A stretch of DNA of 64,000 bases, taken from NCBI RefSeq assembly GCF_021654775.1, contig NZ_AP025343.1:6383501-6447500 (forward strand), in the 5' to 3' direction. The stretch comes from Paenibacillus azoreducens (GTDB taxonomy: Bacteria > Bacillota > Bacilli > Paenibacillales > Paenibacillaceae). The translations under genes and the position numbers were made by a program. Shown here piece by piece: positions 1 through 62,072 of this stretch (its first letter is position 1; each line of letters begins with the position of its first letter). Under the pieces are notes generated by a model. The model saw nothing but the letters and a program-made list of their open reading frames with translations, was not told the DNA's origin and did not search any database.

Positions 1-367
1 ATACGTGAAGATTAATTGCTGTATCGGGACCTTGGAATAGACGGTGTTCAAACCAATCGGGTTCCCGTATGTGTAGCGTGTACCCCTCTTCCTCCAAGTC
101 AGGAACGTAGGCCGTTTCGTCCGCAGAATTCTCTACTACCAGCAGCATATCGATGATTGGCTTGGCACATAATCCTGGCACCGAAGTAGATCCAACATGC
201 TCCAATTGCAGAACCTTGTTTCCAAGTATTGAACGAATTCGTTCGGCCTCTTGCTCGAAAATTTTAGGCCAGTGCGGATCATAATCCTGGAGAATTATGG
301 ATGTGTTGTGAGGCTTCAGTTCACCAATCGTTGCTTTCTGAAGCCTTTCCTCACTGGTAGATGCCAT
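1..367 (-). CDS. GrpB-family (UPF0157) protein, 3' end outside window
   Basis: The first 122 codons are visible, starting at the ATG read from 367 on the minus strand. The product carries the family signature EHVGSTSVPGLCAKPIID around residues 56-73, after a segment (IILQDYDPHWPKIFEQEAERI) typical of the family N terminus. GrpB proteins have a nucleotidyltransferase-like fold and no well-established role. The gene runs out of the window, so C-terminal features are unknown. It is divergent from the operon that begins at 556, so it is probably an unrelated chromosomal neighbour marking the left edge of that block. Confidence 0.8.
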   Translation of the reverse strand, partial: MASTSEERLQKATIGELKPHNTSIILQDYDPHWPKIFEQEAERIRSILGNKVLQLEHVGSTSVPGLCAKPIIDMLLVVENSADETAYVPDLEEEGYTLHIREPDWFEHRLFQGPDTAINLHV

Positions 368-555
368 ATTTGAATGATTATGATTCGATGTCAAATACTC
401 CACCCGCTTTCTTTCATATTTGATATGAAAACGCTAAGCTCTTCAATATACCACAAATGTATATCGAAGCAAAGGCCTGTACCTTCCCCTTTCCTTACCC
501 TCTATCCCTTGTTCTTAATTCTTTTCAATCGGAAAAAGGAGGTTCCTACTTTACC

Positions 556-891
556 ATGGATCAAAATCAATCTCTATACATTCCCTTAGGCGTCAAGCCG
601 GAAGCCGAGTGGTTTCCCGGCTTCGGTAAACATCAGCTTGGTCAATCATCTATTGGCTCACTTGCTGCTGTTGTAGTCGCCCTATGTCTTTGGCTGATGG
701 GCAGAAGTGTTCCGCTCGCAGTGGTTACTTTCCTGATCGGCGTGTCCGCCTCTGTGATGATGACAACCAAGGACCGTCATAATTTGTCTGTACTGGATCA
801 GATCATGTTTATGATTCGTTATGCCAAGTCTCAGAAGTTCTACCCTTATCGCAGTTTAAACACTTGGACTACGACGGAATACAAGCTATGA
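556..891 (+). CDS. PrgI/VirB3-like small membrane protein
   Basis: A 111-residue protein with a hydrophobic hairpin at about residues 33-70 (SLAAVVVALCLWLMG then LAVVTFLIGVSASVMM), followed by a basic-aromatic tail (MIRYAKSQKFYPYRS) like that of PrgI/VirB3-type inner-membrane proteins of Firmicute conjugation systems. The ATG at 556 is chosen because AAAGGAGG lies about 14-20 bases upstream; the longer open frame from 457 has no ribosome site. The stop overlaps the next gene's start (ATGATG at 888), implying translational coupling. It is the first gene of the pilus/VirB4 operon. The PrgI assignment rests on size, topology and neighbours rather than on a firm motif. Confidence 0.55.
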   Translation: MDQNQSLYIPLGVKPEAEWFPGFGKHQLGQSSIGSLAAVVVALCLWLMGRSVPLAVVTFLIGVSASVMMTTKDRHNLSVLDQIMFMIRYAKSQKFYPYRSLNTWTTTEYKL

Positions 892-1334
892 TGCACACAG
901 AAACCGCCACCGCCTTACTGATACAGGGGATGTTATTTTCTACGCTTCTTCTTATTGCTAGTTTTCACGACATTCGCACACGCGAGGTCCCCAATTGGGT
1001 GCCGATCGCCTTAATCGGCTCAGGCTTGCTCCAGTTCCAGCTTGTTCCGGCTCTTATCGGCCTCGTATCTACCAGCTTGCCTTATCTGCTTGCCGCTGTT
1101 ACCACAAACGGAAAAATCGGCGGCGGCGATATTACGCTGATGGCAGCCTGTGGTTTTGTTTTGGGCCCAGTCGGCGGCCTTCTGCAAAGCATTATCGGGT
1201 TAACATTCGTTTTGCTCTTCGCGATAGGAATCGTTTATCGTCATGGGCTTAAAAAAACCAAGCAAACCGCCTTCCCGCTCGTTCCTTTTCTTACGGCAGG
1301 CGGTTTGCTCACGTTTACATTACTTTATTTGTGA
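888..1334 (+). CDS. Type IV prepilin peptidase (TadV/CpaA-like)
   Basis: A 148-residue polytopic protein. It has the two aspartates expected of aspartyl prepilin peptidases: one in FHDIRTREVPN near residue 27 and one in the GGGD motif near residue 76, each next to a membrane segment. Such enzymes cleave the basic leader of type IV or Flp pilins at the inner membrane. The length fits the short TadV/CpaA form, which lacks the N-terminal methylase domain. The start overlaps the stop of the preceding gene. Likely substrates are the pseudopilin-like proteins at 7105 and 7497; no classical Flp pilin gene was found nearby. Confidence 0.85.
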   Translation: MMHTETATALLIQGMLFSTLLLIASFHDIRTREVPNWVPIALIGSGLLQFQLVPALIGLVSTSLPYLLAAVTTNGKIGGGDITLMAACGFVLGPVGGLLQSIIGLTFVLLFAIGIVYRHGLKKTKQTAFPLVPFLTAGGLLTFTLLYL

Positions 1335-1359
1335 TTGACGAAGGAGGATATTCCAATTC

Positions 1360-2100
1360 ATGAATTGGCTAAAAAACCGTACCGTTCTGGGGATAAGTTG
1401 CATAATCTTATCCCTTATCCTTTGTCTCGGCATTGCGCCGCTGTTGAATCGAAGCGCCAGTGAAAAAGTCGCGATTGCCCGCATCGTTCAAGAGGTAGCC
1501 GAGGGCGAGGCCATCACTGCCGCTCATGTAGAGACCGTGTATGTAGGAGCCTACAATCTGCCCACTGACGTGCTAAAATCCGAAGACCAAGTTGTCGGAC
1601 AGTATGCCGCGGCGGATCTGAAAGTTGGAGATTATTTGCTCCCTTCCAAATTGTCAGCCTCTCCCCTCGATGCTTATTTAACCCGTCTGGACGGACAGAG
1701 ACAAGCCTTGTCGGTTACAATCAAAAGCCTCGCAGCGGGCCTTTCCGGCAAGCTTCAACCTGGTGATATTGTTAGCTTATTCGCCACCGACTACGGCGAC
1801 TTTCGCACAACCACGTTGCCCCCGGAACTGCAATACGTAGAAGTGCTGTCGGTTACGACCAGCAGTGGTCTGGATGCCCAAACCACAGCAAACGATCAAA
1901 ACGAAAGAGAACTGCCTTCCACACTTACCTTGCTCGTCCGGCCTGAGCAAGCCGTATTGCTGACCGACATTGAAAGCAAAGGAAAACTACATGCGGCATT
2001 GGTTTATCGGGGAGATGCGGCAACAACACAGTTATTCCTCGATAAACAAGAAGCGTATTTCTCGTCCAAATCACAACCGGAGGATGTTGCTCATGAGTAA
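1360..2100 (+). CDS. CpaB/RcpC-like SAF-domain pilus assembly protein
   Basis: A 246-residue protein with an N-terminal membrane anchor (residues 7-28) and an extracytoplasmic SAF-type segment: EVAEGEAITAAHVETVYVGA around residues 43-62, then VGQYAAADLKVGDYLLPSKL. This is the usual arrangement in CpaB/RcpC. In Gram-negative Tad systems CpaB works with the secretin; here, in a Gram-positive, it may be a cell-wall spacer or scaffold. An AAGGAGG site precedes the ATG. The 3' end overlaps the next gene's start at 2093. Confidence 0.75.
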   Translation: MNWLKNRTVLGISCIILSLILCLGIAPLLNRSASEKVAIARIVQEVAEGEAITAAHVETVYVGAYNLPTDVLKSEDQVVGQYAAADLKVGDYLLPSKLSASPLDAYLTRLDGQRQALSVTIKSLAAGLSGKLQPGDIVSLFATDYGDFRTTTLPPELQYVEVLSVTTSSGLDAQTTANDQNERELPSTLTLLVRPEQAVLLTDIESKGKLHAALVYRGDAATTQLFLDKQEAYFSSKSQPEDVAHE

Positions 2101-2941
2101 TAAACCGCTTATCGTCCTATGGGGCAGTCCGAATAGCGGTAAAACCATCGCTACCGTCAAATTAGCGCAAGCTCTGGCCGCTCACCGTAAAAATGTACTC
2201 GTCATATTCAGTGACGCCCTCTGCCCTTCCGTTGCCGCTATCGTACCTGGGCAAGCTAATGAGCAGAAATCGCTTGGTGAGCTGCTCAGTCTGCCTTCGC
2301 TTGCCCAGGAAGATCTGCTCCACTATTCGCTTGCGTTAAAAGGCTCGCCCCATCTCGCCTTTCTCGGTTATAAAAAAGGCGATCATGTCTTTTCTTATGC
2401 TGACTATAGCCGCGAGCGAGCCGTCGACTTGCTGACTCTGGCCAGACATACTGCCGATGTTGTGCTGGTAGACTGCGCCAGTTATGTGTCTTCTTATTTG
2501 CTTTCGACCGTGGCGCTGGAGTTAGCCGACGTAATATTCCGATTTCACAACTGCGATCTCAAAAGCCTGATGTTTTACGCCTCCTATTTGCCGTTATTGT
2601 CCGATGCCCGATTTCAGCATGCGGAGACGATTCCGATTTTGTCCAATGTCAAGCCGGGACAAGATAACCGGGCATATAGCCAAGTTGTCGGGGGAATCCA
2701 ATTCCTTCTGCCGCACGTCGCAGCGCTGGAACAACAATCCCTCGAAGCACGACTCATGGACCCGCTTCCGCCCGGCAAGGACGCGACTCTTTATCAGGAA
2801 GGCATCTCCCACATGATGAGGTTGATCATCCCCGAGGACGTACAGAAGTCACATAAGAGTACCGCGGCAGCTACGAGCAAAGCGTCTGTCGCTCCATGGT
2901 TCAGAAAGCAGCTTGAACTTTGGCGAGGTGATCGAAAATGA
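2093..2941 (+). CDS. MinD/CpaE-like P-loop ATPase
   Basis: A 282-residue protein starting at the ATG overlapping the upstream stop, with CCGGAGG about nine bases ahead. The P loop GSPNSGKT lies at residues 11-18, and VVLVDCASYVSS near residue 125 resembles a Walker B strand. Tad CpaE/TadZ ATPases of this fold place the pilus machine in the cell. The canonical deviant Walker A (KGGxGKT) is replaced by a simple GxxxxGKT. It overlaps tadA-like 2938 by a few bases. A second protein of this general class closes the operon at 14015. Confidence 0.65.
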   Translation: MSNKPLIVLWGSPNSGKTIATVKLAQALAAHRKNVLVIFSDALCPSVAAIVPGQANEQKSLGELLSLPSLAQEDLLHYSLALKGSPHLAFLGYKKGDHVFSYADYSRERAVDLLTLARHTADVVLVDCASYVSSYLLSTVALELADVIFRFHNCDLKSLMFYASYLPLLSDARFQHAETIPILSNVKPGQDNRAYSQVVGGIQFLLPHVAALEQQSLEARLMDPLPPGKDATLYQEGISHMMRLIIPEDVQKSHKSTAAATSKASVAPWFRKQLELWRGDRK

Positions 2942-4278
2942 ATCAATCCGCACTCTATTTCTCTAGCCAGTCCAAGCCTTTTAGTGAAGTGTTGATAGAG
3001 GTGCAAGCTTACCTCTCCAGCAAATACGCGACTTTGCTCAGTAGTCATCAGGTAGAACAGAAGCAGCAGATTATCGCCTATATCAGTCAATACTTGACCG
3101 ATCACCGGCTGCACGTGCCTGGCCTAGCTTTTGATGAGCTAATCGACCGTTTGTATGCGGAAATGGTCGAGTATTCGTTTTTGACACGCTATTTATTCGC
3201 GAGTGATGTGGAAGAGATCAACATTAACGGCTATAACGACGTGAAAATCAGTTACACGAATGGCGCTATCCTGCCTGCTGATGAACAATTTGCTTCCCCT
3301 GAACACGCGATCAATGTCATTAGGCGTTTGCTGCACCAATCCGGTATGATTCTCGACTACTCGCAGCCCATCGTTCGCGGACACTTGGCCAACAATATTC
3401 GCATTACCGTTTTCGGCATGCCGATCACGGATAAGGACAAGGGCATCGCCGCTTCCATTCGAATCGTCAACCCACAAAAACTGGCGCGGGAAGATTTTAT
3501 CCACAGCGGTACAGCCACCGGTGAAATGCTGGACTTTCTCAGCCTATGCCTGCGATACGGTCTTTCGATCTGCGTAACCGGAGCAACCGGCAGCGGCAAG
3601 ACGACCCTTATGAGCTGGCTATTGTCAACGATTCCTTATGACAAGCGAATCTTTACGATTGAAAACGGCACTCGCGAGTTTGACCTGGTGATGACGGACG
3701 GGGAAGGGCACGTCCTGAACAACGTGGTGCATACAGTGACACGATCCAGTGAAGACCCTCGTCAAAACATCGACCAAGAAAAATTGTTAGAGTATGCCTT
3801 GACTGCCAACCCCGATGTAATTTGTGTAGGTGAGATGAAATCTGCCGAAGCATTTGCTGCACAGGAAGCAGCCCGTACCGGACATACGGTCATTACGACA
3901 ACCCACGCCAATTCCTGTCTCGCCACCTATTACCGAATGGTGACACTTTGCACACAAAAATACGAAATGAACGATACAACACTGTACAATCTGGTTACTG
4001 AAGCATTTCCGATTGTTCTGTTTGTCAAAAAACTGGAGGATAATGTCCGTCGCATCATGGAAATCACCGAATGCCGCATTCATTCTGACGGTACGCGTGA
4101 GGTGGTTCCTTTATACCGATTCGCCGTCCACTCTACACGGGAAGTCTGCGGGCAAATTCGTATCGAAGGTGACTTCGAAAAAGTAAATGACATCTCACCC
4201 GGTTTGCAGAAACGTCTATTGGAAAATGGCTTGCCGCTATCCATGTTGCAACAATTAAGAGGGGGCGATAGCACATGA
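2938..4278 (+). CDS. CpaF/TadA-family secretion ATPase
   Basis: A 446-residue type II/IV secretion ATPase. The Walker A motif GATGSGKTT is near residue 215. The region VICVGEMKSAEAFAAQEAARTGH carries the Walker B/His-box signature, with E where many family members have R in 'GEMRS'. An N-terminal helical region of about 100 residues precedes the ATPase core, as in CpaF. In Tad systems this enzyme powers pilus extension and retraction together with TadB and TadC, which follow at 4275 and 6208. The start overlaps the preceding stop (ATGA). Confidence 0.9.
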   Translation: MNQSALYFSSQSKPFSEVLIEVQAYLSSKYATLLSSHQVEQKQQIIAYISQYLTDHRLHVPGLAFDELIDRLYAEMVEYSFLTRYLFASDVEEININGYNDVKISYTNGAILPADEQFASPEHAINVIRRLLHQSGMILDYSQPIVRGHLANNIRITVFGMPITDKDKGIAASIRIVNPQKLAREDFIHSGTATGEMLDFLSLCLRYGLSICVTGATGSGKTTLMSWLLSTIPYDKRIFTIENGTREFDLVMTDGEGHVLNNVVHTVTRSSEDPRQNIDQEKLLEYALTANPDVICVGEMKSAEAFAAQEAARTGHTVITTTHANSCLATYYRMVTLCTQKYEMNDTTLYNLVTEAFPIVLFVKKLEDNVRRIMEITECRIHSDGTREVVPLYRFAVHSTREVCGQIRIEGDFEKVNDISPGLQKRLLENGLPLSMLQQLRGGDST

Positions 4279-5213
4279 TGGTGTTGCTCCTGCTTTCCTT
4301 TGTTGGCTTATCCGCTGGAAGCCTGATATTACTGAGCCTGACTCCCCGTTCGTTAATGGAAGCTTTATCGGAGTTCTTGCAACGGAGGCAGATGCGCAGG
4401 CAGCCGATCGCCGAGCAAATTCGGCGTGTTCAGCGACCGAAGAAATTGAAGGGCTGGCGCGCCACCATTGTCGAGGCGACCACGATCTTACATCAAATCG
4501 GACACGAACAGCGTACAGGTTTCCTTTTCGCCCTTTCCTTGATGCTGGCGATAGGCGGCGCTCTACTCGCCCTGATACTGAACAACATTTGGCTTTTGCC
4601 CGTCCTTGCAGGCGGGTTTGCCATGTCGCCTTTTTGGATCGTGCTATTTCGTGCAACGTTCTACAAAAAGCGGCTGCATGACGAATTGGAAACCGCATTA
4701 TCCGTTATTACAACATCTTATCTGCGCAGCGAGAATATTCTAGCGGCGGTCGAGGAGAATTTGCCGTATCTGAATCCGCCCGTATCCGATGTGTTTCAAG
4801 CATTTTTAGCGGAGTCCAAACTGATTCATACGAATCTTCATCTGGCGCTCACAAGACTGCGTGGTCGCATTCATAATAGTGTCTTTCAGGAATGGTGCGA
4901 CGCATTGATGGCCTGTCAGGAGGATCGCGCGCTGAAAACGACACTCATGCCCATTGTCGCCAAGCTATCCGACATGCGCGTCGTTTCGGCTGAACTGGAC
5001 GCAGCCCTCTATGAACCACTCAAAGAGTTTATTACGATGGCTCTGCTGCTGATCGGCAACATTCCACTGCTCTATTTCTTAAATCGGGATTGGTATCGCG
5101 CTCTGACGCAAACGACGCCAGGGCATGCTGTGTTGGCATTGTGCGCGCTAGCAATCTTGGTATCTTTGGCTGCCGTCATTCGGCTGACGCGGCCACTCGA
5201 TTATCGAAGATAG
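4275..5213 (+). CDS. TadB-like platform protein (T2SS F family)
   Basis: A 312-residue membrane protein with an N-terminal anchor, a central hydrophobic pair (LSLMLAIGGALLALIL, then LPVLAGGFAMSPFWIVLF), a cytoplasmic helical domain of about 150 residues, and two C-terminal membrane segments. This topology matches TadB-type GspF/PilC homologues that couple the TadA ATPase to pilin polymerisation. The start ATG overlaps the tadA-like stop. It pairs with the TadC-like protein at 6208, although three other open frames lie between them. Confidence 0.75.
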   Translation: MMVLLLLSFVGLSAGSLILLSLTPRSLMEALSEFLQRRQMRRQPIAEQIRRVQRPKKLKGWRATIVEATTILHQIGHEQRTGFLFALSLMLAIGGALLALILNNIWLLPVLAGGFAMSPFWIVLFRATFYKKRLHDELETALSVITTSYLRSENILAAVEENLPYLNPPVSDVFQAFLAESKLIHTNLHLALTRLRGRIHNSVFQEWCDALMACQEDRALKTTLMPIVAKLSDMRVVSAELDAALYEPLKEFITMALLLIGNIPLLYFLNRDWYRALTQTTPGHAVLALCALAILVSLAAVIRLTRPLDYRR

Positions 5214-5224
5214 GAGGCCCCTAT

Positions 5225-5476
5225 ATGAACAACAAAGACGTCGCTTCCTTGCTGGGAGAGTTGATAGAGGCGGATAAGGATGAGTGGGTCAGTTTGGAAA
5301 GGCTGCTTAATCGGTACGGCGTGGTCGGCTTTTTCCAAAAGTTAGATGAGAGAATGCCCTTGTCAACGGAAAGCTTGGAAAAACTTCAAGCGCTTCAATC
5401 ATTGATAGACATCCTGTCAAAAAGGTATGTGGAACTTGGGGAGGGAAACGGATGTGAGCCAGCTCCACACCAATGA
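5225..5476 (+). CDS. Small acidic protein of unknown function
   Basis: An 83-residue soluble, helix-rich, acidic protein (start ATG 5225, preceded by ATAGGAGG). Nothing in it is recognisable. It sits between the TadB-like and RadC-like genes and overlaps the likely GTG start of the latter, so it appears to be translated as part of the operon. Confidence 0.55.
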   Translation: MNNKDVASLLGELIEADKDEWVSLERLLNRYGVVGFFQKLDERMPLSTESLEKLQALQSLIDILSKRYVELGEGNGCEPAPHQ

Positions 5477-6053
5477 GAAGTATGTGGCTGACTTTGTCCA
5501 TTCCATTCACAAATTAACCCGCATCCCATTGCACAAGCTGGAGGAATACGGCAAGGTAAACAACCTCATCAACGTACTGGAACATCCTCGCGTATTGGAG
5601 CCGACCACTGCACAATTTCAAAAAATTGAGCAACTCAATGCGTTCCTTCGGGCCTACCGCGTGGTCAAGTGGGAGGAGGAAAACGCCAGACAGTGTATTC
5701 GCTCACCACAACATGCTGGCGACTATTTTTCCACGCTTCTCGATGGCGTTCGGGACCGGGAACGGTTTATGGTTGCCTTCTTGAACAACAGCAATCGCAT
5801 CATCGAGACCCGCACGATTTCGGAAGGCGGCATCGACCAAGCGCCTGTCTACCCCCGTGATGTCCTAAAAGCCGCCTTGAATTGCGACTGCTCTGCTGTG
5901 ATTTTTGCGCATAATCATCCGGGCGGCACCCTCTCCCCTTCTCCCGAAGACATACAGTTAACGCGACGGATGGTCGATATTTTCGAGCCCTTAAACATCC
6001 AAGTACTCGATCATATCATCATCGCGGGCAATGGCTACCTGTCCATGGCTTAA
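5454..6053 (+). CDS. radC: RadC-family JAB/MPN protein
   Basis: About 199 residues from the GTG at 5454 (GGGGAGGG lies about ten bases upstream); an in-frame ATG at 5427 is possible but lacks a ribosome site. The C-terminal half has the JAB metal motif HNHPGGTLSPSPED, giving the H-x-H-x(n)-S-x(2)-D metal ligands. RadC homologues are common on conjugative and integrative elements, where the role is unproven. The frame ends at GYLSMA-stop, and the same frame continues open for another 44 codons, so the protein may be shortened by a nonsense change. Confidence 0.8.
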   Translation: MSQLHTNEKYVADFVHSIHKLTRIPLHKLEEYGKVNNLINVLEHPRVLEPTTAQFQKIEQLNAFLRAYRVVKWEEENARQCIRSPQHAGDYFSTLLDGVRDRERFMVAFLNNSNRIIETRTISEGGIDQAPVYPRDVLKAALNCDCSAVIFAHNHPGGTLSPSPEDIQLTRRMVDIFEPLNIQVLDHIIIAGNGYLSMA

Positions 6054-6188
6054 ATGGGCAAACTGCCGAGCGTTGCAGAAAGGGCCGCCAACTACGATTC
6101 CATCTCCCTTCCGGTGATGGAACAAATCGGCTTTCTATACGAAACATTGCATTCGCCAGATGAAGTTGAAGATGAATGGGAACGGTAA
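6054..6188 (+). CDS. 44-codon in-frame continuation of radC-like gene
   Basis: This frame begins with ATG directly after the TAA of the RadC-like gene, in the same frame, and encodes MGKLPSVAERAANYDS... ending in an acidic tail (DEVEDEWER). There is no ribosome site just ahead of the ATG. The simplest reading is that the TAA at 6051 is a point change (for example GAA to TAA) and that this is the original C terminus. A separate small protein made by stop-start coupling is the alternative. Confidence 0.4.
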   Translation: MGKLPSVAERAANYDSISLPVMEQIGFLYETLHSPDEVEDEWER

Positions 6189-6207
6189 AGGAGGTGTCAT
6201 CTGATTC

Positions 6208-7080
6208 ATGACTGAACTTCTTGTGGGCTTCAGTCTATTTTTTGCAGCCGGAGCCTATTTTTTATTAGCCGATCTATTGCAAGTCTCCACCCGTGCCAAC
6301 ACAAAAGCGATTCTGCAGGTCGCCAAAATTGGAAAAGGGAAATCATCCTCCCTGCATGTCCTGCTCTTTCGCCTCTCCGCTTGGCTAGCCGAACACTTGA
6401 AGCTCAGTGACTACTACAAACGAAAAACAGCGGCTACGCTTCGTTCAGCCGGCATCACCCTCACGCCCGAAGTGTTTCTGTCGCAAGCGATTGTGAAAGC
6501 AAGTCTAATCTTTGGTGCCGGAATGGCCCTTCTTCCCTTTCTACCGCTGCTATCCCCGCTCTTGATCTTTCTGGCTATCGCCTTCTTTTTTAAAGACTAC
6601 CGCTCCGCCGATGAAGCGGTACGAAAAAAGCGTGAGCAAATCGAATCCGAACTTCCCCGATTCGTCGCAACCGTATCGCAAGAATTGAAGGCCTCACGCG
6701 ATGTCCTGCGGATACTCGAGACGTATGCGAACCATGCTGGAGAGAGTTTACAGCATGAACTACAAATGACGATCGCTGATATGAAAAGCGGTAGTCTGGA
6801 AACCGCGCTACTCCGACTGGAGACCCGGATCGGCAGCACGATGCTGTCTGATATGGTACGTGGCTTGTTGGCCGTGTTGCGCGGTGATCAGGGTGTGGTC
6901 TATTTTGAAATGCTAGCGCATGATTTCAAGCTGGCCGAGATCCAACGACTCAAACGGATCGCGATGAAGCGCCCCGGCAAAATCCGCAAATATTCCTTCC
7001 TAATGTTAGCCTGCTTCATGCTTACCTACATGGTCATTATCGGCATGGAGATTATGAAGGCTGTTGGTGAGTTGTTTTAA
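6208..7080 (+). CDS. TadC-like platform protein (T2SS F family)
   Basis: A 290-residue protein with an N-terminal membrane segment, a hydrophobic hairpin around residues 97-130 (FGAGMALLPFLPLLSPLLIFLAIAFFF), a helical cytoplasmic domain containing ELPRFVATVSQELKASRDV, and a C-terminal membrane segment. This is the usual GspF/TadC layout. It is the second of two platform proteins expected for a Tad machine. AAAGGAGG stands before the ATG. It is followed closely by the pseudopilin-like gene at 7105. Confidence 0.75.
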   Translation: MTELLVGFSLFFAAGAYFLLADLLQVSTRANTKAILQVAKIGKGKSSSLHVLLFRLSAWLAEHLKLSDYYKRKTAATLRSAGITLTPEVFLSQAIVKASLIFGAGMALLPFLPLLSPLLIFLAIAFFFKDYRSADEAVRKKREQIESELPRFVATVSQELKASRDVLRILETYANHAGESLQHELQMTIADMKSGSLETALLRLETRIGSTMLSDMVRGLLAVLRGDQGVVYFEMLAHDFKLAEIQRLKRIAMKRPGKIRKYSFLMLACFMLTYMVIIGMEIMKAVGELF

Positions 7081-7104
7081 TCTGCTTATGAAAGGAGGCT
7101 TTCT

Positions 7105-7500
7105 ATGCTGTATCGAGCTCTCCGCTCCCGCCGCGGCGAAGGGTATATCGATGTTACCGTCATTGTGCTCGCAGCCATGCTTTGCATCGGACTTGCCGTT
7201 CAAGTTTTTCCGGTATTTATGGCCCAGCAAAAGCTGGATACGTTCGCGAGTGAATTGGCCCGGGAAGCAGAGATTTCTGGCAGAGTCGGCCCTGAAACCA
7301 CACAGCGAGCCAATGAGTTGCAACTGCAAACCGGGCTGTCTCCCAACATCGCATGGAGCAAAACCGGCCCAATTCAAATCAACCAAGAGGTAACAGTCAC
7401 ACTGCGCACGACAGCAGATATCGGTTTTGGAAGCTTTGGATCATTTCCCATCGAGCTTTCAGCTACTGCGAAAGGAAAGTCCGAGGTGTACTGGAAATGA
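7105..7500 (+). CDS. DUF4320/TadE-like pseudopilin-type protein
   Basis: A 131-residue protein with a short basic leader (LYRALRSRRGEG), one N-terminal membrane helix (YIDVTVIVLAAMLCIGLAVQVF) and an extracytoplasmic remainder. This is the layout of TadE-like minor pilins and resembles DUF4320 proteins seen near VirB4-type loci. The glycine before the acidic residue (RRG-EG) is a plausible prepilin cleavage point, although E at +5 is absent. A strong AAAGGAGG precedes the ATG. Its stop overlaps the next start (ATGA). Confidence 0.6.
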   Translation: MLYRALRSRRGEGYIDVTVIVLAAMLCIGLAVQVFPVFMAQQKLDTFASELAREAEISGRVGPETTQRANELQLQTGLSPNIAWSKTGPIQINQEVTVTLRTTADIGFGSFGSFPIELSATAKGKSEVYWK

Positions 7501-8033
7501 TGCGATTCTGGAAAAATTGTTCCGGCAGCGGGTATCCGCTTGCGATTACAATTGTGCTGGCAATTCTGCTGCTATCTTGCTGCATATTTGAATATTTCCG
7601 GCTATCCATCATCGCAGCAGAGGTAAGGATCGCCACACAAAGTGCCATTATATCCGTAGCAACAGAAAATTACAACCTGGTCTACAACGGCTTGCGGCAA
7701 AGCTATTCAGGCGGGTATACTCGAGCCGACAATCAATGGCAAGAATCTTGGACAACAGGTGACATTTACAACCGCATTAGCCGGGATTTAGGACTGGTTC
7801 AAGAAGGGAGCAGATATATGCGGAAATCCGCTGACTACACCGAGTACAGCATCTCTGAACTTGAAGTCGATATCATGAATACGCCGTTCGCTCCTGCGTC
7901 ACCCGATTCCATTCAACAATTTACCGCCGAGGCACAGCTACAGCTTTCCGTGCCGCTATCTTTCGGCTGGGGCCATCTGCCTCCCATGAAAGCGAGTTTG
8001 AAGGTTCAGGCTGTGTATCGACCACGATTTTGA
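7497..8033 (+). CDS. Second single-helix pseudopilin-like protein
   Basis: A 178-residue protein starting at the ATG that overlaps the previous stop. One membrane helix (PLAITIVLAILLLSCCIFEYF) sits at residues 12-34, followed by a helical stretch and a C-terminal beta-rich region. The ...EYFRLSIIAAEVR... pattern after the helix recalls TadE/TadG-type proteins. Position after the DUF4320-like gene suggests a partner minor pilin. Family assignment is tentative. Confidence 0.5.
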   Translation: MMRFWKNCSGSGYPLAITIVLAILLLSCCIFEYFRLSIIAAEVRIATQSAIISVATENYNLVYNGLRQSYSGGYTRADNQWQESWTTGDIYNRISRDLGLVQEGSRYMRKSADYTEYSISELEVDIMNTPFAPASPDSIQQFTAEAQLQLSVPLSFGWGHLPPMKASLKVQAVYRPRF

Positions 8034-8160
8034 AAGTGCAAGCAAGATTCTACTGTAATCAACAAGATCGCTGTTCAAGTTGGAATTTACAGATTTATAC
8101 ATTATAATGAGGATAACCTTTCCTTTTTCGATTCGTTCACTGAAAAGGAGTTGATTCGTC

Positions 8161-8763
8161 GTGAAACGTAAAATATGGGTATGGACGAGTTGCATTATTC
8201 TTTTAGGTGCCATTGGTTTGTGGGCGTTCAGCAACGATGGAGGCCAATCTTCCGAGGTTGAAACGATCGTGCCTCCCTCTCCCGATTCTGCTCTTGTGAC
8301 GATACCCGATATTGATCCCGAACCATCTTCTAAGACCGACACAAATTCGGAATCACCTGGGCAGAACCCCGAAAAAGACGGTTCTGCTTCAAGTCATATT
8401 CCCGAAGCTTCGCAAAATACAGAACTAAGTATTTCAGAACCACCTGGCCTGCAACCGGAGAAAGAAGTTACAGAAGTCGAAGTCCCCCTTACCGATCCGA
8501 CACCAACGCCAAAGCCGACAGAGCCGCCAAAGCCTAAGCCCAAAGAAACAGATAAACCACAGTCTCCTGACACTCCGCCTACTTATGAGGAGAAGGAAAC
8601 TCAGCCCAACAAGCCGCAGGATGAGCCGAAAGCTGGTAACAAAAACGAAAATGGAAAAGTCCTCGTGCCAGGGTTCGGTTGGGTTGAGCAAGGAGGCCCT
8701 AGTCAAGGTAGCAAAAGTGAATCAGATGGTGATTGGAATAAACAAATAGGTACAATGGATTAA
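8161..8763 (+). CDS. Membrane-anchored proline-rich wall-spanning protein (DUF6550-like)
   Basis: A 200-residue protein from a GTG start (AAAAGGAG upstream). It has an N-terminal helix (IWVWTSCIILLGAIGLWAF), a long acidic Pro/Thr/Lys-rich low-complexity stalk at about residues 90-160, and a conserved-looking end GKVLVPGFGWVEQGG ... GDWNKQIGTMD. The VPGFGWV and IGTMD end motifs resemble DUF6550 proteins found near Firmicute VirB4 loci. The stalk could span the cell wall. A gap of about 127 bases separates it from the previous gene, the largest in the operon so far. Confidence 0.55.
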   Translation: MKRKIWVWTSCIILLGAIGLWAFSNDGGQSSEVETIVPPSPDSALVTIPDIDPEPSSKTDTNSESPGQNPEKDGSASSHIPEASQNTELSISEPPGLQPEKEVTEVEVPLTDPTPTPKPTEPPKPKPKETDKPQSPDTPPTYEEKETQPNKPQDEPKAGNKNENGKVLVPGFGWVEQGGPSQGSKSESDGDWNKQIGTMD

Positions 8764-8826
8764 TCTATTAATGAAGCAGAGGTACAGGTAATCACCTGTA
8801 CCTCTTTGCTTTGGGAGGAGATTCGA

Positions 8827-10557
8827 TTGAAACGTATCCTCATATCGGTTCTAACTTTATTGGTCATGGTTTCTTCCCTCTGTTCCCCTATTTATGCAAA
8901 CGGCGACGGGAATATTGACAATGGCGGAGGGGACATGGGATCAGGAACATCTCAAAATAAATGGTCACCCGGTTATGACGGAGTACGGATTACCATAATT
9001 CGCTCTAGTGACAAAGCAGTGGTTTCCACCCCTATTGACTATACCAACAAGACATTGCCTAGAGACATCATACACTTTGGGAAGACTAGCAAGATTCAAT
9101 ATCTAAATCACAGCCCATTGAAGCCCTCTACCGATATCTACCGATATAAAATCCCTGCATCGCCAATGCCACGTATAATCAGCTCTGGCGAAACCGTTAC
9201 CGACATCGAGGTCATCAAAAAATATTTCACTTCTGAAGGCGCAGTAAAAATGGTAGCCAACGATACTGGCATCGACTTCGATTCGTTAACTAACGGAAAC
9301 TATAAGCTGTTGCTGGAGCCCATTGCGTATCTAACCTTTCAAGGCGTATTCATGTCGATGACTGCTCATGAAGCGGCTTTGTACGATCAAATCCTTAGTG
9401 GCGGTCTACGTTCCAAGATGGTGAGCCTCACCCATCAAAATCTGCCTTTGTCCATGTTTCTTGAAACGCCTGACCTCGATTTTCCCGCATGGAGCGGCTC
9501 ACGCAGAGGCAGAGTGAGCAACGACCAGATTATCTCATCCTTAGGACTTGGTATTGTCCGTTTTAACGGTGCGCCAACTACACCTCCACCACCGGTCCAG
9601 ACAAGCGTGCAGTACCGTACCAATACCGATGTCATCACCTCCGTAAGGCTCTCCACTTCCGCCGCGATTACTCCCGAATCCCCAGCCAGCGTATCGTTTC
9701 ATATTTTGGGTAGCCGTTATACGGTTAGCAATATTGTCATTCCAGAGGGGGACAGTCAACTGGTTTGGGTGAAATGGCGCACGCCAAGCCAGCCACAAAC
9801 ACTCTCCATTCAGGTAAGTTCCTCCAAGGGTTCATTAAGTGCATCTTCTATCACCGCCTCCATTGTTGATTTAAATCAGAATACTCCCCCTGATCCGAAG
9901 GCCACAGATCGAAATGACAGTTTTCGGCAACCGTCCATCCCTAGCTATGCAGATAAAACGTCCGCTTCATGGGGCATATGGTCTGCACACTGGCATGAAT
10001 ATTGGGTTTGGATTCCCAAGTGGCGTTGGATCAGCACGGGACCCGATTCCGGTTATTGGGTAGACAACGGACATTGGGAGGATCAGGGCTGGTGGGAATA
10101 TACTTGGACAGGTTATCGTGCCTCGCTTTCTGCCACACAATCTATTTCCCCTGATGCCAAGTCTCCCAGTACAGTTTCCGACCGTATCAAATCCGGATAC
10201 GGAATTGAAATGGACGTATCGGCTGACGTGCCTTCAAATGCGCCCAGCAGCCACTTAACCGGCGCGCAAAATGCCGTTTCCTATTTTCCTGAGTTTAACT
10301 ATCGAACATATTGGCGATTGCATGATTCGAAAACGAGTGGATTAAAGGCCGACTTTGGGCTAAAACCGAATGACTTCTCCACTTATCAAAGTCGGGTACA
10401 CTTTACGCCTATTTGGTATCCCGACGGTTTCTATACTCCAATTACTCGTGTGTTGGACGCCTGGACACCGGACGGGATGCTTACCTTGCAGCTTCAAAGT
10501 GCGATCACGATTTCCGGCAACTTGTTTTCCGATTGGCATATTTCACCACTAAAATAA
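8827..10557 (+). CDS. Large secreted surface protein of the Tad/VirB4 operon
   Basis: About 576 residues. The TTG at 8827 is preferred because GGGAGGAG lies 7 to 14 bases ahead and gives a clean signal peptide (KRILISVLTLLVMVSSLCSPIYA). The mature part starts with a Gly/Asn/Asp-rich linker. It then has a region around residues 30-250 with no recognised fold, an Ig-like stretch, and a tryptophan-rich patch around residues 395-440 (WGIWSAHWHEYWVWIPKWRW). No anchor or LPXTG is visible. Its place suggests an exported adhesin or a structural part of the machine. Confidence 0.55.
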   Translation: MKRILISVLTLLVMVSSLCSPIYANGDGNIDNGGGDMGSGTSQNKWSPGYDGVRITIIRSSDKAVVSTPIDYTNKTLPRDIIHFGKTSKIQYLNHSPLKPSTDIYRYKIPASPMPRIISSGETVTDIEVIKKYFTSEGAVKMVANDTGIDFDSLTNGNYKLLLEPIAYLTFQGVFMSMTAHEAALYDQILSGGLRSKMVSLTHQNLPLSMFLETPDLDFPAWSGSRRGRVSNDQIISSLGLGIVRFNGAPTTPPPPVQTSVQYRTNTDVITSVRLSTSAAITPESPASVSFHILGSRYTVSNIVIPEGDSQLVWVKWRTPSQPQTLSIQVSSSKGSLSASSITASIVDLNQNTPPDPKATDRNDSFRQPSIPSYADKTSASWGIWSAHWHEYWVWIPKWRWISTGPDSGYWVDNGHWEDQGWWEYTWTGYRASLSATQSISPDAKSPSTVSDRIKSGYGIEMDVSADVPSNAPSSHLTGAQNAVSYFPEFNYRTYWRLHDSKTSGLKADFGLKPNDFSTYQSRVHFTPIWYPDGFYTPITRVLDAWTPDGMLTLQLQSAITISGNLFSDWHISPLK

Positions 10558-10578
10558 CGAAAGGATGGTGCTGCTTTT

Positions 10579-11259
10579 ATGCTGATACCGATCCTCATCC
10601 TGCTCTTCTGCGTCATAGGCGGAGGAGCTGTTCTATTTTTTCTCCGAACCGGCAAACGACGGTCGCAATTGACCATCGACGCGGCCGCGCAAACAGCGCA
10701 ACAATTCGTCAACGTTCAAGATATTCAAGGCCATTTCTTGTATACGTTGGACGGCTGGGTACTATCTTATCTTCGCATCTTTCCGATCAGCCTTGACCTG
10801 TTAAGCCTATCAGAGAAACGAATGCTCATCCGCAAGCTAACCGCTGAGCTTTCTTCCATTCGATTCCCCTTTAAATTTCTGGCTGTAAGCCGCCCCGTCG
10901 ATATTTCTCCCCTAATCACAGATCTTTCCTCCCTGCTCCCCTCTGCCGATTCAGCACAAAAAGAATTGCTGCGTCAAGAATTGATGGAGATGAACTCATT
11001 AGCGCTATCCGGTGAAGTGGTAGAGCGACAATTTTATTTGTCACTCTGGCAACGGCAAGAGCAAGGCGGTGAACGCGAACTACTAGACAAGGCAAAGCGA
11101 CTTGTCCAGCACTTTGAGGATGCTGGGGTTCAGGCTCAACTCCTCAAGCAACAGGAGATTGTTCGGCTATGCAATCTGGTAAACAACCCAGCATACAGTC
11201 ATCTGGACCAAGCTGACCCAGAGGAAGCAATACCATTTTTATTTTACAGGGAGGGATAA
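10579..11259 (+). CDS. TraC/VirB4 N-domain-like membrane protein
   Basis: A 226-residue protein with an N-terminal membrane helix (residues 2-22) and a soluble domain starting QQFVNVQDIQGHFLYTLDGW. The pattern (FLYTLDGWVLSYLRIFPISLDLLSLSEKRMLIRKL...IRFPFKFLAVSRPVDI) resembles the N-terminal domain found in VirB4/TraC conjugation ATPases. In many systems that domain is fused to the motor; here it is a separate membrane-tethered protein, with the VirB4 motor two genes downstream. It probably docks the motor at the membrane. Confidence 0.55.
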   Translation: MLIPILILLFCVIGGGAVLFFLRTGKRRSQLTIDAAAQTAQQFVNVQDIQGHFLYTLDGWVLSYLRIFPISLDLLSLSEKRMLIRKLTAELSSIRFPFKFLAVSRPVDISPLITDLSSLLPSADSAQKELLRQELMEMNSLALSGEVVERQFYLSLWQRQEQGGERELLDKAKRLVQHFEDAGVQAQLLKQQEIVRLCNLVNNPAYSHLDQADPEEAIPFLFYREG

Positions 11260-11262
11260 CAC

Positions 11263-12090
11263 ATGGACCCAACTACTGCCAAGCTGTTAGCACAACTTGC
11301 CGTGAAAGTGGCAGCCGATGAAGAAGCACGTAAACGACTCCTCCTTCTCATCGCAATTCCTGCCGCCACGCTATTACTTTTGATTGCTATGATTTTGCAA
11401 CTGTTAACTTCACCAATCGAATCCCTCAAGATATTCCTCACTCCCAATGAAACGCCGATTGTAAAGGGATTGCGTTCTGATTACGGATACACACAGTTGT
11501 TACAGAAAGAAGATGACGGTTACTTGGAAAGTAACGGGCAGCAATATGAGGGTGTCGTATTTCAAGACGGTAGCCGTGAGGTCGTGTACTTCAATCAAAT
11601 GGATGCTCGATGGGCAGACAAGCCTTATGGCCCTATCGATACGATCGGTATTGCCGGTTGCGGCCCGACTTCTCTTTCCATCGTTGTCTCCACGCTTCTC
11701 ACTGATCAAACCGTTGATCCGGTCACCATGTCGAAGTGGGCCTACGACAATGGATATTTAGCGGAAGGCACCGGCAGCTACCATAGCCTGATTCCAGACG
11801 GGGCCAAACATTTTGGCTTACAGGTAACAGGCGCAACCGCTAAGGAAAAGCAGACCATCATCGATGCTTTAGCTGCCGGTAAGCTCGTTGTCGCCATTAT
11901 GGGCAAAGGCCATTTCACTTCAACCGGCCATTTTATTGTTCTGCGCGGCGTCACAGAAGATGGACACATTTTAGTCGCTGATCCTGCAAGTAAAAAAAGG
12001 AGCGAGCAAACTTGGGACTTCAATATCATCTTGGCTGAAGCCAGAAAAAATGCCGGTGCAGGCGGACCATTTTGGATTATTCATTCATGA
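11263..12090 (+). CDS. Membrane-anchored C39-type cysteine peptidase
   Basis: 275 residues with one membrane helix at about residues 26-48. An extracytoplasmic peptidase C39_2-like domain follows: the catalytic Cys is in GIAGCGPTS (residue about 133), the His in TGHFIVLRG (about 222) and the Asp in LVADPAS (about 237). Firmicute conjugation machines usually carry a lysozyme plus NlpC/P60 wall hydrolase at this point. A C39 fold in that role is unusual; alternatively it may process an exported substrate. The start at 11263 is three bases past the previous stop, with AGGGAGG upstream. Confidence 0.75.
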   Translation: MDPTTAKLLAQLAVKVAADEEARKRLLLLIAIPAATLLLLIAMILQLLTSPIESLKIFLTPNETPIVKGLRSDYGYTQLLQKEDDGYLESNGQQYEGVVFQDGSREVVYFNQMDARWADKPYGPIDTIGIAGCGPTSLSIVVSTLLTDQTVDPVTMSKWAYDNGYLAEGTGSYHSLIPDGAKHFGLQVTGATAKEKQTIIDALAAGKLVVAIMGKGHFTSTGHFIVLRGVTEDGHILVADPASKKRSEQTWDFNIILAEARKNAGAGGPFWIIHS

Positions 12091-12107
12091 AAGGAGTGGC
12101 AATTCAT

Positions 12108-13919
12108 ATGTCACGAGATACTTCCGTGTCCTCTAATCCCTCTTTGTTGAATGCGATCACACCAATGGGCCTTGAATTCTTACGCACAGGCCTCTCCGTC
12201 GGTGAAGAATCTGCAAAAATGTATGGCGTAATCCAATACCCTCAAAAAGTGGACATTGGTTGGCTCTCCCCTCTTACCAATCTGCCTGCTACTATGGCTG
12301 CCATCGGTTTTCAGCCGATTGACAACAGCGCGTTGATCAACGCCATCTCCAAGTCCATCACCCAAAACCGCAGTCTGGCCGACAGCGCAAAAGACCCGCT
12401 CACCCGACAGCGGGCAGAAAAGGCAGCGGCAGACGGCGAACAAATTATGTTGCAAATCGACCAGAACGGCGAGACAGTTGGTTTGATGAATATGGTTGTC
12501 ATGCCGTTTGCCCAGGAAGAAAAACATTTTACTCGTGCTTGCCGCCGCGTTGAAAATACATTCAGCATGATGCGCTGTAAAATTCGTACGCTCGCTCACC
12601 TACAAAAAGAAAGCTACACTCATTTATCTCCCTTATATCCAGCGCATGAGCAAATTGAACAGGTGCTGAACAAAATTATGCCGATGAGCACCTTCGTCGG
12701 CGGGTTTCCCTTTGCCAGTAGTGGTTTTAATGACGGGACTGGTTATTACTTAGCTAAAGACGCCAGCGGCGGGCTGATTATTGTTGATCTATGGCGGCGC
12801 GGCGGCGATCGAACGAATTCCAACATCGTTGTGATGGGTGTAGCCGGTGTGGGTAAATCGACGGCGGTCAAACATATCGCGCTTAGCGAATATATGAAAG
12901 GAACCAAAATCATTTTTGTGGACCCGGAATCTGAATATAAGGAACTGACTCAGAAGTTAAACGGCGATTGGATTAATGCCGGTGGCGGCATGGGCGGGAA
13001 AATCAATCCGCTGCAAATTCGCCCAGCTCCTCGTGACGAAGAAGACGAGGAGCATCCCCTATATAAGGATGAAGGAAACGGCATGTCGGATATGGCCTTG
13101 CATCTCAAAAATTTGGAGATATTTTTTAATCTTTACATCCCTGATCTTACAATGATGCAAAAAGCCGTTCTCAAGCAATGTTTAATCGAGCTATATCACC
13201 AGTTTCAAATCTCTTGGACAACGGACATCTCTAAACTGACGAGTACGGACTTCCCTACCTTTTCCAATCTCCATGACCTTCTTCAAGCTAAAGAACAGAA
13301 TACAAACGATGAAGTCTATAAAGAATTATCCCTGCTGTTGCACGACATTGCACACGGCGGGGATTCTTTTTTATGGAACGGTCACAGCACCATTCAAACC
13401 CGCAGCCGCTGCATTTGCCTGGACACGCATTCACTGCAAAATACGTCCGACAATATTAAGCGAACGCAATACTTTAATCTGCTGTCCTGGTGCTGGGAAC
13501 AAATGTCGCAAGATCGGAATGAACGGGTACTACTGATCTGTGATGAATCTTACCTTATGATTGACCCGAACGTCCCACAAAGCCTTGTCTTTTTGCGGAA
13601 CGTTGAGAAGAGAGCGCGGAAGTATGAGGCGAGTCTGGCGATCGTCTCTCATAGCGTGGTTGACTTTCTTGCCCCCGAGGTAAAAATGTACGGTCAAGCT
13701 CTGCTCGATATTCCAAGCATCAAAATCCTAATGGGAACCGATGGACAAAATCTCCAAGAAACACGAGAACTATACAATTTAACCGAAGCGGAAGAGGAAT
13801 TGCTTGCCAGTAAAAAACGCGAACACGCCTTACTTATGATCGGCTCCAAACGCATGCACGTCCACTTCGAGATTCCCGAATACAAGTTTGCTTATATGGG
13901 ATCTGCAGGAGGACGATGA
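12108..13919 (+). CDS. VirB4-like conjugation ATPase
   Basis: 603 residues from the ATG at 12108 (AAAGGAG upstream); the open frame extends 12 codons further up without a ribosome site. The Walker A motif GVAGVGKST lies near residue 244, followed by FVDPESEYKEL. The Walker B strand VLLICDESYLMIDPN is near residue 475, with the downstream AIVSHSVVDFL helicase-like motif. VirB4 motors energise type IV secretion and conjugative pilus assembly. The sequence resembles the clostridial VirB4 group on Tn1549-like elements. Co-occurrence with TadA, a different motor class, in one operon is the odd point. Confidence 0.9.
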   Translation: MSRDTSVSSNPSLLNAITPMGLEFLRTGLSVGEESAKMYGVIQYPQKVDIGWLSPLTNLPATMAAIGFQPIDNSALINAISKSITQNRSLADSAKDPLTRQRAEKAAADGEQIMLQIDQNGETVGLMNMVVMPFAQEEKHFTRACRRVENTFSMMRCKIRTLAHLQKESYTHLSPLYPAHEQIEQVLNKIMPMSTFVGGFPFASSGFNDGTGYYLAKDASGGLIIVDLWRRGGDRTNSNIVVMGVAGVGKSTAVKHIALSEYMKGTKIIFVDPESEYKELTQKLNGDWINAGGGMGGKINPLQIRPAPRDEEDEEHPLYKDEGNGMSDMALHLKNLEIFFNLYIPDLTMMQKAVLKQCLIELYHQFQISWTTDISKLTSTDFPTFSNLHDLLQAKEQNTNDEVYKELSLLLHDIAHGGDSFLWNGHSTIQTRSRCICLDTHSLQNTSDNIKRTQYFNLLSWCWEQMSQDRNERVLLICDESYLMIDPNVPQSLVFLRNVEKRARKYEASLAIVSHSVVDFLAPEVKMYGQALLDIPSIKILMGTDGQNLQETRELYNLTEAEEELLASKKREHALLMIGSKRMHVHFEIPEYKFAYMGSAGGR

Positions 13920-13922
13920 AGG

Positions 13923-14012
13923 ATGGATAAAAAGAAGCAACTCATCGAGCTCTTCATTTATATCATCATCGTGATTGTAGGAGCAATCCTATTGATTATG
14001 AAAGAAGGATGA
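13923..14012 (+). CDS. 29-residue single-helix membrane microprotein
   Basis: The ATG at 13923 follows the VirB4 stop by three bases, with AGGAGG about ten bases upstream inside the end of that gene. The product is a short charged head (MDKKKQ), one hydrophobic helix (LIELFIYIIIVIVGAILLIM) and a KEG tail. The stop overlaps the next gene's first in-frame ATG. The good ribosome site, the coupling at both ends and the clear amphitopic design suggest a real gene, perhaps a small membrane partner of the motor. There is no homology evidence. Confidence 0.55.
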   Translation: MDKKKQLIELFIYIIIVIVGAILLIMKEG

Positions 14013-14014
14013 CC

Positions 14015-15028
14015 ATGATTCTATATTTGACCAGCCATGCAAACGTGAATTTACTGGATCAATTCGAGATGGAGCAGGAAATGCCGGTAAAGAAACTGAT
14101 CGGACAATTTTCGCTCCTCTCCTTTGTGGTCAAGGACATGCGGCACTTTAACCATGTTCGATACATCGCGATTGATCGAAAGGCCATATTGGAATCCGAT
14201 GAAGAAATGATACAGGCCCTTTTATCGTTTCAAACGATGTACGAGATTCGTATCATTGTCATTGCCGAAGGACTGCCGGACAGCAGTCCCTTTCTACAGC
14301 AACTAATTCAAATTAGAATCACGAATGTGGTGACTTCAGAACATATCAAGACAATGCTGGAAGAAATACAGGATTGCTTTTCAGAGCAAGGGATGCAGCG
14401 ATATATTCCTGCTTTTCCCCCTGAACCGGTTAACGAAACAGTGGGTACTTTTCATCCTCATGAAGAAAAATATAGATTTGATTGTAAAAACATACAGATT
14501 GCCGTAGCTGGTAGCGATCGACGGGTAGGCGTTACGACAACAGCAATGAATTTGGTTTTTTGGATTCAAGCACATGGAGGGAATGCCTGTTATTTAGAAG
14601 CCAACACGAGCAAGCATTTGGCTCACATTATCCATCTGTTCGATCCGGAAAAAGTGGGTAACGCTTATGTAATGGAGGGGGCTGATTTTTACTTAACCCC
14701 AGAGTTTGATCGCGATTATAACTTTATTGTGACGGATTGTGGAGTTTTAGGTGAGCCCAGACTACAGGACTCCTTCACAAAAGCAGATGTTCGAGTACTC
14801 TGCGGCTCGGCTATGCCTTATGAACTGCCAGTGTTTTATCGGGCCTTGGAACGCTGTAAAGGCCTTTCTGTATGTGCAGTGGGATTATCCGTAACTGAAA
14901 ATTTAAAGCCTGTTTTGCTTCAAATGCTGAGTCATAACATCCTATTCGGCGATAGCTCCCATGACCTTTTTGATTCAAAGGCTAATCATCAACTCTATTA
15001 TCAGCTTCTTAAATGCTATGTATATTAA
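14015..15028 (+). CDS. CpaE/MinD-like protein with degenerate P loop
   Basis: About 337 residues. The ATG at 14015 is six bases after AAGAAGG; the ATG at 14009 is the alternative. Residues 1-125 look like a receiver-type or otherwise alpha/beta N domain, as in CpaE. The C domain begins IQIAVAGSDRRVGVTTTAMNL, a MinD-like nucleotide loop that lacks the conserved lysines (RRVGVTTT in place of KGGVGKTT). A FIVTDCGVLG strand follows as Walker B. It may bind nucleotide weakly or act as a localisation factor. It is the last gene of the operon. Confidence 0.6.
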   Translation: MILYLTSHANVNLLDQFEMEQEMPVKKLIGQFSLLSFVVKDMRHFNHVRYIAIDRKAILESDEEMIQALLSFQTMYEIRIIVIAEGLPDSSPFLQQLIQIRITNVVTSEHIKTMLEEIQDCFSEQGMQRYIPAFPPEPVNETVGTFHPHEEKYRFDCKNIQIAVAGSDRRVGVTTTAMNLVFWIQAHGGNACYLEANTSKHLAHIIHLFDPEKVGNAYVMEGADFYLTPEFDRDYNFIVTDCGVLGEPRLQDSFTKADVRVLCGSAMPYELPVFYRALERCKGLSVCAVGLSVTENLKPVLLQMLSHNILFGDSSHDLFDSKANHQLYYQLLKCYVY

Positions 15029-16211: not shown

Positions 16212-16249
16212 GAGTAAGGTTCCATCCTTTCAGGTCACTTGGCATCTCT

Positions 16250-61988: not shown

Positions 61989-62072
61989 TGGTACCGGTGA
62001 GAGGACTCGAACCTCCACGGATCTCTCCAAACGATTTTGAGTCGTTCGCGTCTGCCATTCCGCCACACCGGC
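61989..62072 (-). tRNA. tRNA-Leu (CAA)
   Basis: An 84-base tRNA with encoded CCA, extra arm, and loop CTCAAAA giving anticodon CAA. Intact; it is the last gene of the array and the probable integration target of the neighbouring element. Confidence 0.9.

Follow-up and report, generated by a model that had tools for sequence, protein, structure and literature searches.

Why are the genes of a Tad pilus and those of a conjugation-type secretion system mixed in a single run of genes in Paenibacillus azoreducens? Gram-positive transfer systems are usually said to be without pili. The run occupies positions 556 to 15,028 of a 64,000-nucleotide stretch of DNA (contig NZ_AP025343.1, positions 6,383,501 to 6,447,500), which was analysed at its full length and is called the window here. 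Our answer is that the locus is almost certainly the transfer region of an integrated conjugative element. As a whole it is probably best explained as the transfer region of an integrative conjugative element (ICE) with an interleaved Tad pilus that catches recipients. A nearly complete Tad (type IVc) pilus module lies between the genes for VirB3 (PrgI) and VirB4 and its pilin before VirB6, an arrangement conserved in Paenibacillaceae and Clostridia. The genes of the run and their left neighbour are listed below; open reading frames (ORFs) are numbered from the first letter of the window, and L005 denotes the upstream sequence.

2..403, minus strand: GrpB-like gene that runs on left of the window (PF04229, 107.8 bits; whole ORF L005:14804-15403)
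556..891, plus strand: PrgI/VirB3-like membrane protein (PF12666, E 0.0036, below cut-off; PrgI at the same position in related loci)
888..1334, plus strand: prepilin peptidase A24, a GxGD protease (PF01478, 49.9 bits; GGGD motif; start codon picked by eye)
1360..2100, plus strand: CpaB/RcpC with SAF domain (PF16976, 61.2 bits; PF08666, 29.2 bits; TIGR03177, 75.8)
2087..2941, plus strand: CpaE/TadZ-like P-loop ATPase (weak CbiA/AAA_31 matches below cut-off; conserved order; start codon uncertain)
2938..4278, plus strand: TadA/CpaF motor ATPase (PF00437, 99.9 bits; Walker A and B present; CpaF structures best with the family profile)
4275..5213, plus strand: TadB-like platform protein (by position; four membrane segments; no relevant Pfam match)
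5225..5476, plus strand: small ORF (present in 4 of 83 loci searched)
5427..6053, plus strand: RadC-like JAB protein (PF04002, 137.6 bits; in 16 of the 48 loci with conserved order described below)
6208..7080, plus strand: TadC-like platform protein
7105..7500, plus strand: DUF4320, TadE-like prepilin (PF14208, 110.2 bits; RRGEGYID site)
7497..8033, plus strand: second TadE/TadF-like pseudopilin (one N-terminal membrane segment; conserved order)
8161..8763, plus strand: DUF6550 protein (PF20187, 71.5 bits; N-terminal membrane segment)
8806..10557, plus strand: beta-rich 583-residue protein of the Tad module with an N-terminal hydrophobic helix, probably secreted (model pLDDT 82.5)
10579..11259, plus strand: N-terminal half of VirB4, a split gene (NF045975 positions 98-283)
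11263..12090, plus strand: membrane-anchored C39-type peptidase (PF13529, 73.2 bits)
12108..13919, plus strand: C-terminal ATPase half of VirB4 (NF045975 positions 295-885, 345 bits; nearest solved VirB4 structure PDB 4ag5, 450 bits with the family profile)
14009..15028, plus strand: second CpaE-like protein, with which the conserved unit ends (matched in 63 of the 83 loci searched)

The identities of these products can be regarded as established, those of TadB and PrgI weakly so, with TadB and TadC as putative platform proteins. The prepilin peptidase and CpaB of a Tad pilus set were both found (Pfam; TIGR03177). The channel set VirB4, VirB6 and VirB3-type protein was likewise found, PrgI weakly, and the two VirB4 halves are separate genes in all 80 loci carrying both. 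With a family profile TadA is of the CpaF type (206 bits compared to 105 for VirB11). An assignment as VirB11 was rejected because the family profile is nearest to CpaF, despite the opposite order of the single-sequence NCBIfam scores. Among 26 TadB/TadC members Pfam recognized T2SSF in two. A Foldseek search with TadC gave no match under E 0.001, and neither hhalign of TadB/TadC against a Sulfobacillus protein nor the TadC profile against PDB sequences was informative. The 583-residue protein had weak Ig/FN3-like matches only.

The earlier note on this DNA had seen no relaxase, coupling protein or VirB6-like protein. This is correct within the window; in the same genome, all three are encoded directly upstream. 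The window splits the transfer system in half, and the genes inside it are themselves real. The next 12 kb upstream (L005) code for a Toprim protein, an RHH-like protein, a MobP3 relaxase (NF041499, 228 bits, cut-off 150; histidine motif present), a VirD4 coupling protein of the CD1115 family (NF045973, 331 bits, cut-off 250; PF02534, 188.9), a VirB2-like protein and TrbL/VirB6 (TrbL_4, E 6e-115). Farther left are ParA, ParB and a 2197-residue SNF2-helicase protein. Thus, of the two options offered by the earlier note, transfer genes beyond the window edge were indeed present, MobP3, VirD4, the VirB2-like protein and TrbL among them, while the other, a protein rather than a DNA cargo, is unlikely.

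Where is the pilin? A DUF6133 protein is encoded between the VirB2-like gene and TrbL. From its length, a cleavage-like site and a membrane helix we read it as a putative Flp-type pilin; the Flp motif has E at +5, where DUF6133 has D. It scored over the cut-off in 26 of 27 genomes and is whole in relatives. Of 33 strong TrbL copies in these 27 genomes, 30 are preceded by it at a distance of 0-2 kb (the weak copies G015 C42 and G046 C21 were left out); the three without it are in G036 (contig start), G048 and G015. Motif scans for Flp-type pilins missed the copy of this genome.

The boundaries of the insertion were derived from an empty site. In one relative, G127, the gene to the left of ParA is followed immediately by the tRNA array known from the right end of the window (its tRNA-Leu was called by similarity). 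The insertion measures about 86 kb and takes in the window as far as position 61,988. By eye, the left junction in G000 has what resembles a decayed 3' piece of tRNA-Leu; at the right end an intact tRNA-Leu(CAA) adjoins a tyrosine integrase. The end repeats are imperfect, the longest exact match being 12 bases. No integrase-like gene was common to the right flanks of the loci when read by eye. The right end comprises:

59273..59656, plus strand: sigma-70 region 4 protein, close to where the insertion ends on the right (PF04545, 29.2 bits)
60280..60666, plus strand: HTH_17 protein, excisionase-like by position only (PF12728, 32.4 bits)
60742..61941, plus strand: tyrosine integrase adjoining the attachment site (PF00589, 93 bits)
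61989..62072, minus strand: tRNA-Leu(CAA), right end of the insertion (ARAGORN)

Because of the upstream transfer genes and the location of the roughly 86-kb insertion at tRNA-Leu, next to a tyrosine integrase, the locus is very probably an ICE with a DNA cargo.

Is the mixture of genes peculiar to this genome? A VirB4 family search of species genomes yielded 164 confirmed relatives, of which the best 80 were kept; they come from Paenibacillaceae and many Clostridia. The order TadB, TadC, DUF4320, second TadE-like protein, 583-residue protein, VirB4 N-terminal half, VirB4 C-terminal half was present on one strand in 48 of the 61 loci with a full left flank, and TadA was also within the flank in 44 of the 61. 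For linkage, 49 of the 80 loci were chosen, leaving out short contigs and second loci of the same genome; L006 was removed, which left 48 genomes, and L041 and L042 were added. In these 50 loci from 48 genomes VirB4 was linked on the same contig and strand to TadA in 45 (always upstream of VirB4), to TrbL in 46, to VirD4 in 42 and to a relaxase in 42. These are hand recounts on one contig that include 11 PF03432 loci; the raw output was TrbL 47, MobP3 33, VirD4 43 and TadA 46, some on other contigs. Most gaps are contig ends. The five loci lacking TadA are L019 and L021 (contig ends), L071 and L076 (view limited by the contig) and L085 (divergent Tad). In G005 (L011) neither VirD4 nor MobP3 was found anywhere in the genome. 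A MobP2 relaxase, considered for the relatives without MobP3, was found in 0 of 11; instead, PF03432 relaxases were present in 10 of 10. The survey thus showed the unit to belong regularly to conjugative elements that have a relaxase, the outcome which the earlier note had named as contrary to its own reading.

Within the genus, this VirB4 was detected in 8 of 100 genomes and this TadA in the identical eight; the other 92 had neither at the limits used. The eight genomes contain ten TadA-VirB4 pairs, 7.8-10.6 kb apart. Such patchy presence together with strict pairing fits a mobile element. The tree distances of TadA and VirB4 were correlated with r = 0.87 (n = 39 loci, permutation maximum 0.25). 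Of 22 supported splits 13 were common to both trees and 4-5 were in conflict; accordingly, some exchange has happened. Rows with stops were omitted from the trees (VirB4 C-terminal half of L045, L046 and L082; N-terminal half of L055 and L084), and the VirB4 tree was rooted on one plasmid row. The conserved order, the correlated distances and the occurrence in the same eight genomes bear out the claim of the earlier note that TadA and VirB4 form one co-inherited, operon-like unit. As a separate observation, G014, G015 and G036 have further TadA copies that form a second set (55-57% identity). The contigs bearing them have a long MobP3 relaxase frame, and these copies represent another Tad-module lineage.

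What occupies the slot between PrgI and VirB4 in related elements? Four states were observed, the Tad module being the majority. In Ruminiclostridium (G048, G148) the slot holds a SAF protein (23.0, cut-off 21), CpaE-like proteins, a divergent TadA (hhalign probability 97.4%, E 1.5e-11, in a two-sequence alignment) and, by position, TadB/TadC- and pseudopilin-like proteins. A designation of these loci as lacking Tad was overturned by hhalign; the search at E <= 1e-40, BLASTP and Pfam (T2SSE, E 0.067) had all missed the divergent TadA. In G151, a Clostridia metagenome-assembled genome (MAG) with two loci, the slot is filled by giant proteins, in which 13 or 15 SpaA stretches were counted, together with a CpaE-like and an SLH protein; the SLH protein of L107 carries a sortase domain. 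A SpaA protein was encoded upstream of VirB4 in 7 of 7 flank-bearing loci of the sister clade (Clostridia MAGs), and a sortase was found in 3 of these 7 in addition to L107. TadA was not found in the SpaA clade by BLASTP, nor in the one genome (G045) searched at E <= 1e-40; a divergent TadA could escape both. The fourth state is the empty slot of L069, which is the first to branch off in the VirB4 tree. The SpaA clade neighbours Tad-bearing Lachnospiraceae there, so Tad was probably replaced in the SpaA clade. In L107 and L108 the CpaE-like protein is kept where SpaA genes replace the Tad genes; it may therefore belong to the type IV secretion system (T4SS) rather than to the pilus.

The Tad module also occurs with other partners. 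Plasmids having a TadA of at least 41% identity carried CpaB, CpaE, TadA, TadB, TadC and a homologue of the 583-residue protein in 6 of 6 cases beside a VirB4 of 21-26% identity, and for 5 of the 6 the sequence examined included VirD4. The slot states and the Tad modules beside unrelated plasmid VirB4s indicate that both sides change partners. With another or no surface module in sister elements, this favours a partner that can be exchanged over a machine fused into one. The simplest function for a slot filled now by a pilus, now by SpaA/sortase surface proteins is to attach the recipient, and we infer that its content is an exchangeable recipient-catching module. We regard linkage, conservation, co-inheritance, slot exchange and insertion site as established.

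How would such an element work? The MobP3 relaxase would nick the element and VirD4 would pass the DNA strand to a type IV secretion channel of the minimal Gram-positive kind, consisting of VirB6/TrbL, VirB3/PrgI and the split VirB4, with the wall opened by the C39-type peptidase, possibly in a VirB1-like role. The prepilin peptidase would mature the Flp-type pilin and the two pseudopilins. TadA would then drive TadB/TadC so that a fibre is extended and retracted through CpaB; an adhesin at its tip or on the surface may be provided by the 583-residue protein (8806-10557). The Tad pilus would catch recipients and draw them in, as conjugative pili do in Gram-negative bacteria and much as sortase-anchored adhesins do for other elements of Gram-positive bacteria. 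Pilus formation, the mating role and transfer itself are predicted from sequence, and we consider the pilus as a mating device likely. Docking of the pilus on the channel, where CpaF would act as a third motor, is a less likely possibility. A more far-reaching version, to which we give somewhat less than an even chance, is that in a large Gram-positive lineage a retractile Tad pilus within the secretion gene run is a true conjugative pilus, possibly docked and with CpaF as a third motor, and that the VirB3-VirB4 slot is a swappable recipient-catching site for Tad, divergent Tad or sortase-built SpaA.

Could the Tad proteins instead be built into the DNA channel? TadA and the pseudopilins would then form its core, with TadA in the position of a third, VirB11-like motor and the thick wall bridged by a short pseudopilus. 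This would agree with the embedding of the Tad genes between VirB3 and VirB4 and of the pilin before VirB6, and with the co-divergence of TadA and VirB4. TadA belongs to the VirB11 superfamily, its single sequence matches the NCBIfam VirB11 model best, although below cut-off, and the Ruminiclostridium slot contains a divergent Tad set rather than nothing. However, the family profile makes TadA a CpaF-type ATPase by the bit scores given above, similar Tad modules are paired with unrelated VirB4s, and sister elements have SpaA/sortase genes or an empty slot, which counts against a built-in function if they are functional. We consider this structure unlikely. Still less probable is a Tad pilus that is mere cargo, aiding surface colonisation or DNA uptake of the host and taking no part in transfer. 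In many bacteria Tad pili act in adhesion, and Micrococcus luteus uses them for DNA uptake (excerpts of PMC5696575 and PMC8370563). Here, however, the Tad genes lie within the transfer gene run and not in a variable cargo region, their order is kept in 48 of 61 loci and the Flp pilin is interleaved with T4SS genes. A hybrid machine that exports protein or a pilus but no DNA might be surmised from the window itself, which has no relaxase, VirD4 or VirB6 gene. As these genes and the VirB2-like gene are directly upstream in the same genome, and a relaxase is linked in 42 of 50 related loci, we hold such a machine to be extremely improbable.

Several observations weigh against an ICE with a recipient-catching Tad pilus. 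The single TadA sequence scores higher with the NCBIfam VirB11 model than with the TadA model (139.9 and 122.9 bits), both far below the cut-offs of 249.95 and 373 bits. The 583-residue protein has no confident fold match (TM score to the query at most 0.14 among the matches listed), and an external, retractile or adhesive pilus is predicted from the genes. Related elements exist without a Tad module; in L069 PrgI is followed directly by VirB4. Two linked MobP3 genes of relatives contain a stop (G010, G037). Of five relatives compared, one (G127) has the empty site and the other four match the left gene only; the integrase and the T4SS are 45 kb apart, so that a composite insertion is conceivable. 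The pilin gene of this genome is divided by a group II intron (L005:10797-10913 and 13513-13626, reverse transcriptase 11510-13393; the whole region, L005:10797-13626, corresponds to window positions of about -4203 to -1374), and the opposite-strand GrpB gene interrupts the gene run between TrbL and PrgI; because of both, this copy may be impaired. Splicing of the intron could still permit expression of the pilin.

The association of Tad with VirB4 is not new in kind; it is already known from Sulfobacillus and Cutibacterium plasmids, going by excerpts of the papers. The Sulfobacillus thermotolerans plasmids pL15 and pY0017 combine a CpaF/TadA-like ATPase, TadB/TadC-like proteins, relaxase, TraG and VirB4 in one Gram-positive conjugative backbone (excerpts of PMC6803676), and pY0017 shares TrbL and a gene for about 230 residues just before VirB4. 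However, TadA and VirB4 are 24% and 30.6% identical to those here, the TadA-TadB/C block is placed some 12 kb ahead of VirD4 and not between VirB3 and VirB4, and fewer Tad genes are annotated. In the Cutibacterium acnes linear plasmids p15.1.R1 and p09-9 the tad locus adjoins conjugation genes including VirB4, and a tad pilin was detected in the surface fraction by mass spectrometry (excerpts of PMC5696575). Compared by description only, these actinobacterial plasmids differ by an FtsK-type protein and TcpC and by conjugation genes upstream of, not around, the tad locus. The Clostridioides difficile and Terrisporobacter plasmids pCd5_2 and pTPHSE1 have the run A24-CpaB-CpaE-TadA-TadB-TadC-DUF4320 and a protein like the 583-residue one, yet another T4SS (pLS20_p028-type protein; VirB4 22-23% identical), and the Tad module is before, not inside, the T4SS genes. 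For contig 24 of C. difficile strain 133, CpaB/CpaE/CpaF are tabulated in the part consulted of PMC5337907. The VirB2-like and VirB4 proteins here match NCBIfam models of the Mbov_0395 and Mbov_0397 families of the Mycoplasma ICE; there, VirB4 is one protein of 894 positions, and the comparison is one of protein families. In Gram-negative bacteria a type IV pilus encoded with the conjugation system, as here, helps or is needed for mating in IncI R64 and PAPI-1, and Gram-positive systems often use sortase-anchored adhesins instead of pili (excerpts of a 2025 review, PMC12857230). R64 and PAPI-1 differ by another type of type IV pilus, the Gram-negative envelope and, in R64, a separate cluster, whereas we are dealing with a Tad pilus in single-membrane bacteria. 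The literature searched, which covers the field in part, was not found to describe the embedded position of the module, how widely it is spread or the exchange in the slot.

Further genes were noted around these elements. Directly after the transfer region (window 15500-18400) are transposase pieces, an ISAZ013-type match at 17350-18246 and others by eye. The segment 18800-54000 is probable cargo with a LacI-type regulator (by eye), a solute-binding protein (47308-48630) and a two-component system (50662-53847). Rfam reported two group II intron domains on the minus strand (54847-55930) and, beside the integrase, a marginal pemK RNA match (60227-60308; 36.0 compared to 34.8 bits). By eye, L088 and L091 (G001, G002) have ATPase/helicase gene pairs resembling defence cargo between the Toprim and RHH genes, and a minus-strand cluster left of the element in L086 (2443-17016) resembles a secretion or toxin island.

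Of the original observation, the interleaving of Tad genes with transfer genes holds up, and it is unusual. If true, a Tad pilus within the transfer gene run, spread through Paenibacillaceae and Clostridia, would change the picture of pilus-less Gram-positive transfer. The slot shows a pilus and sortase/SpaA surface proteins as alternatives, and their swap in one fixed position makes the way in which Gram-positive elements hold their recipients directly testable by deletion.

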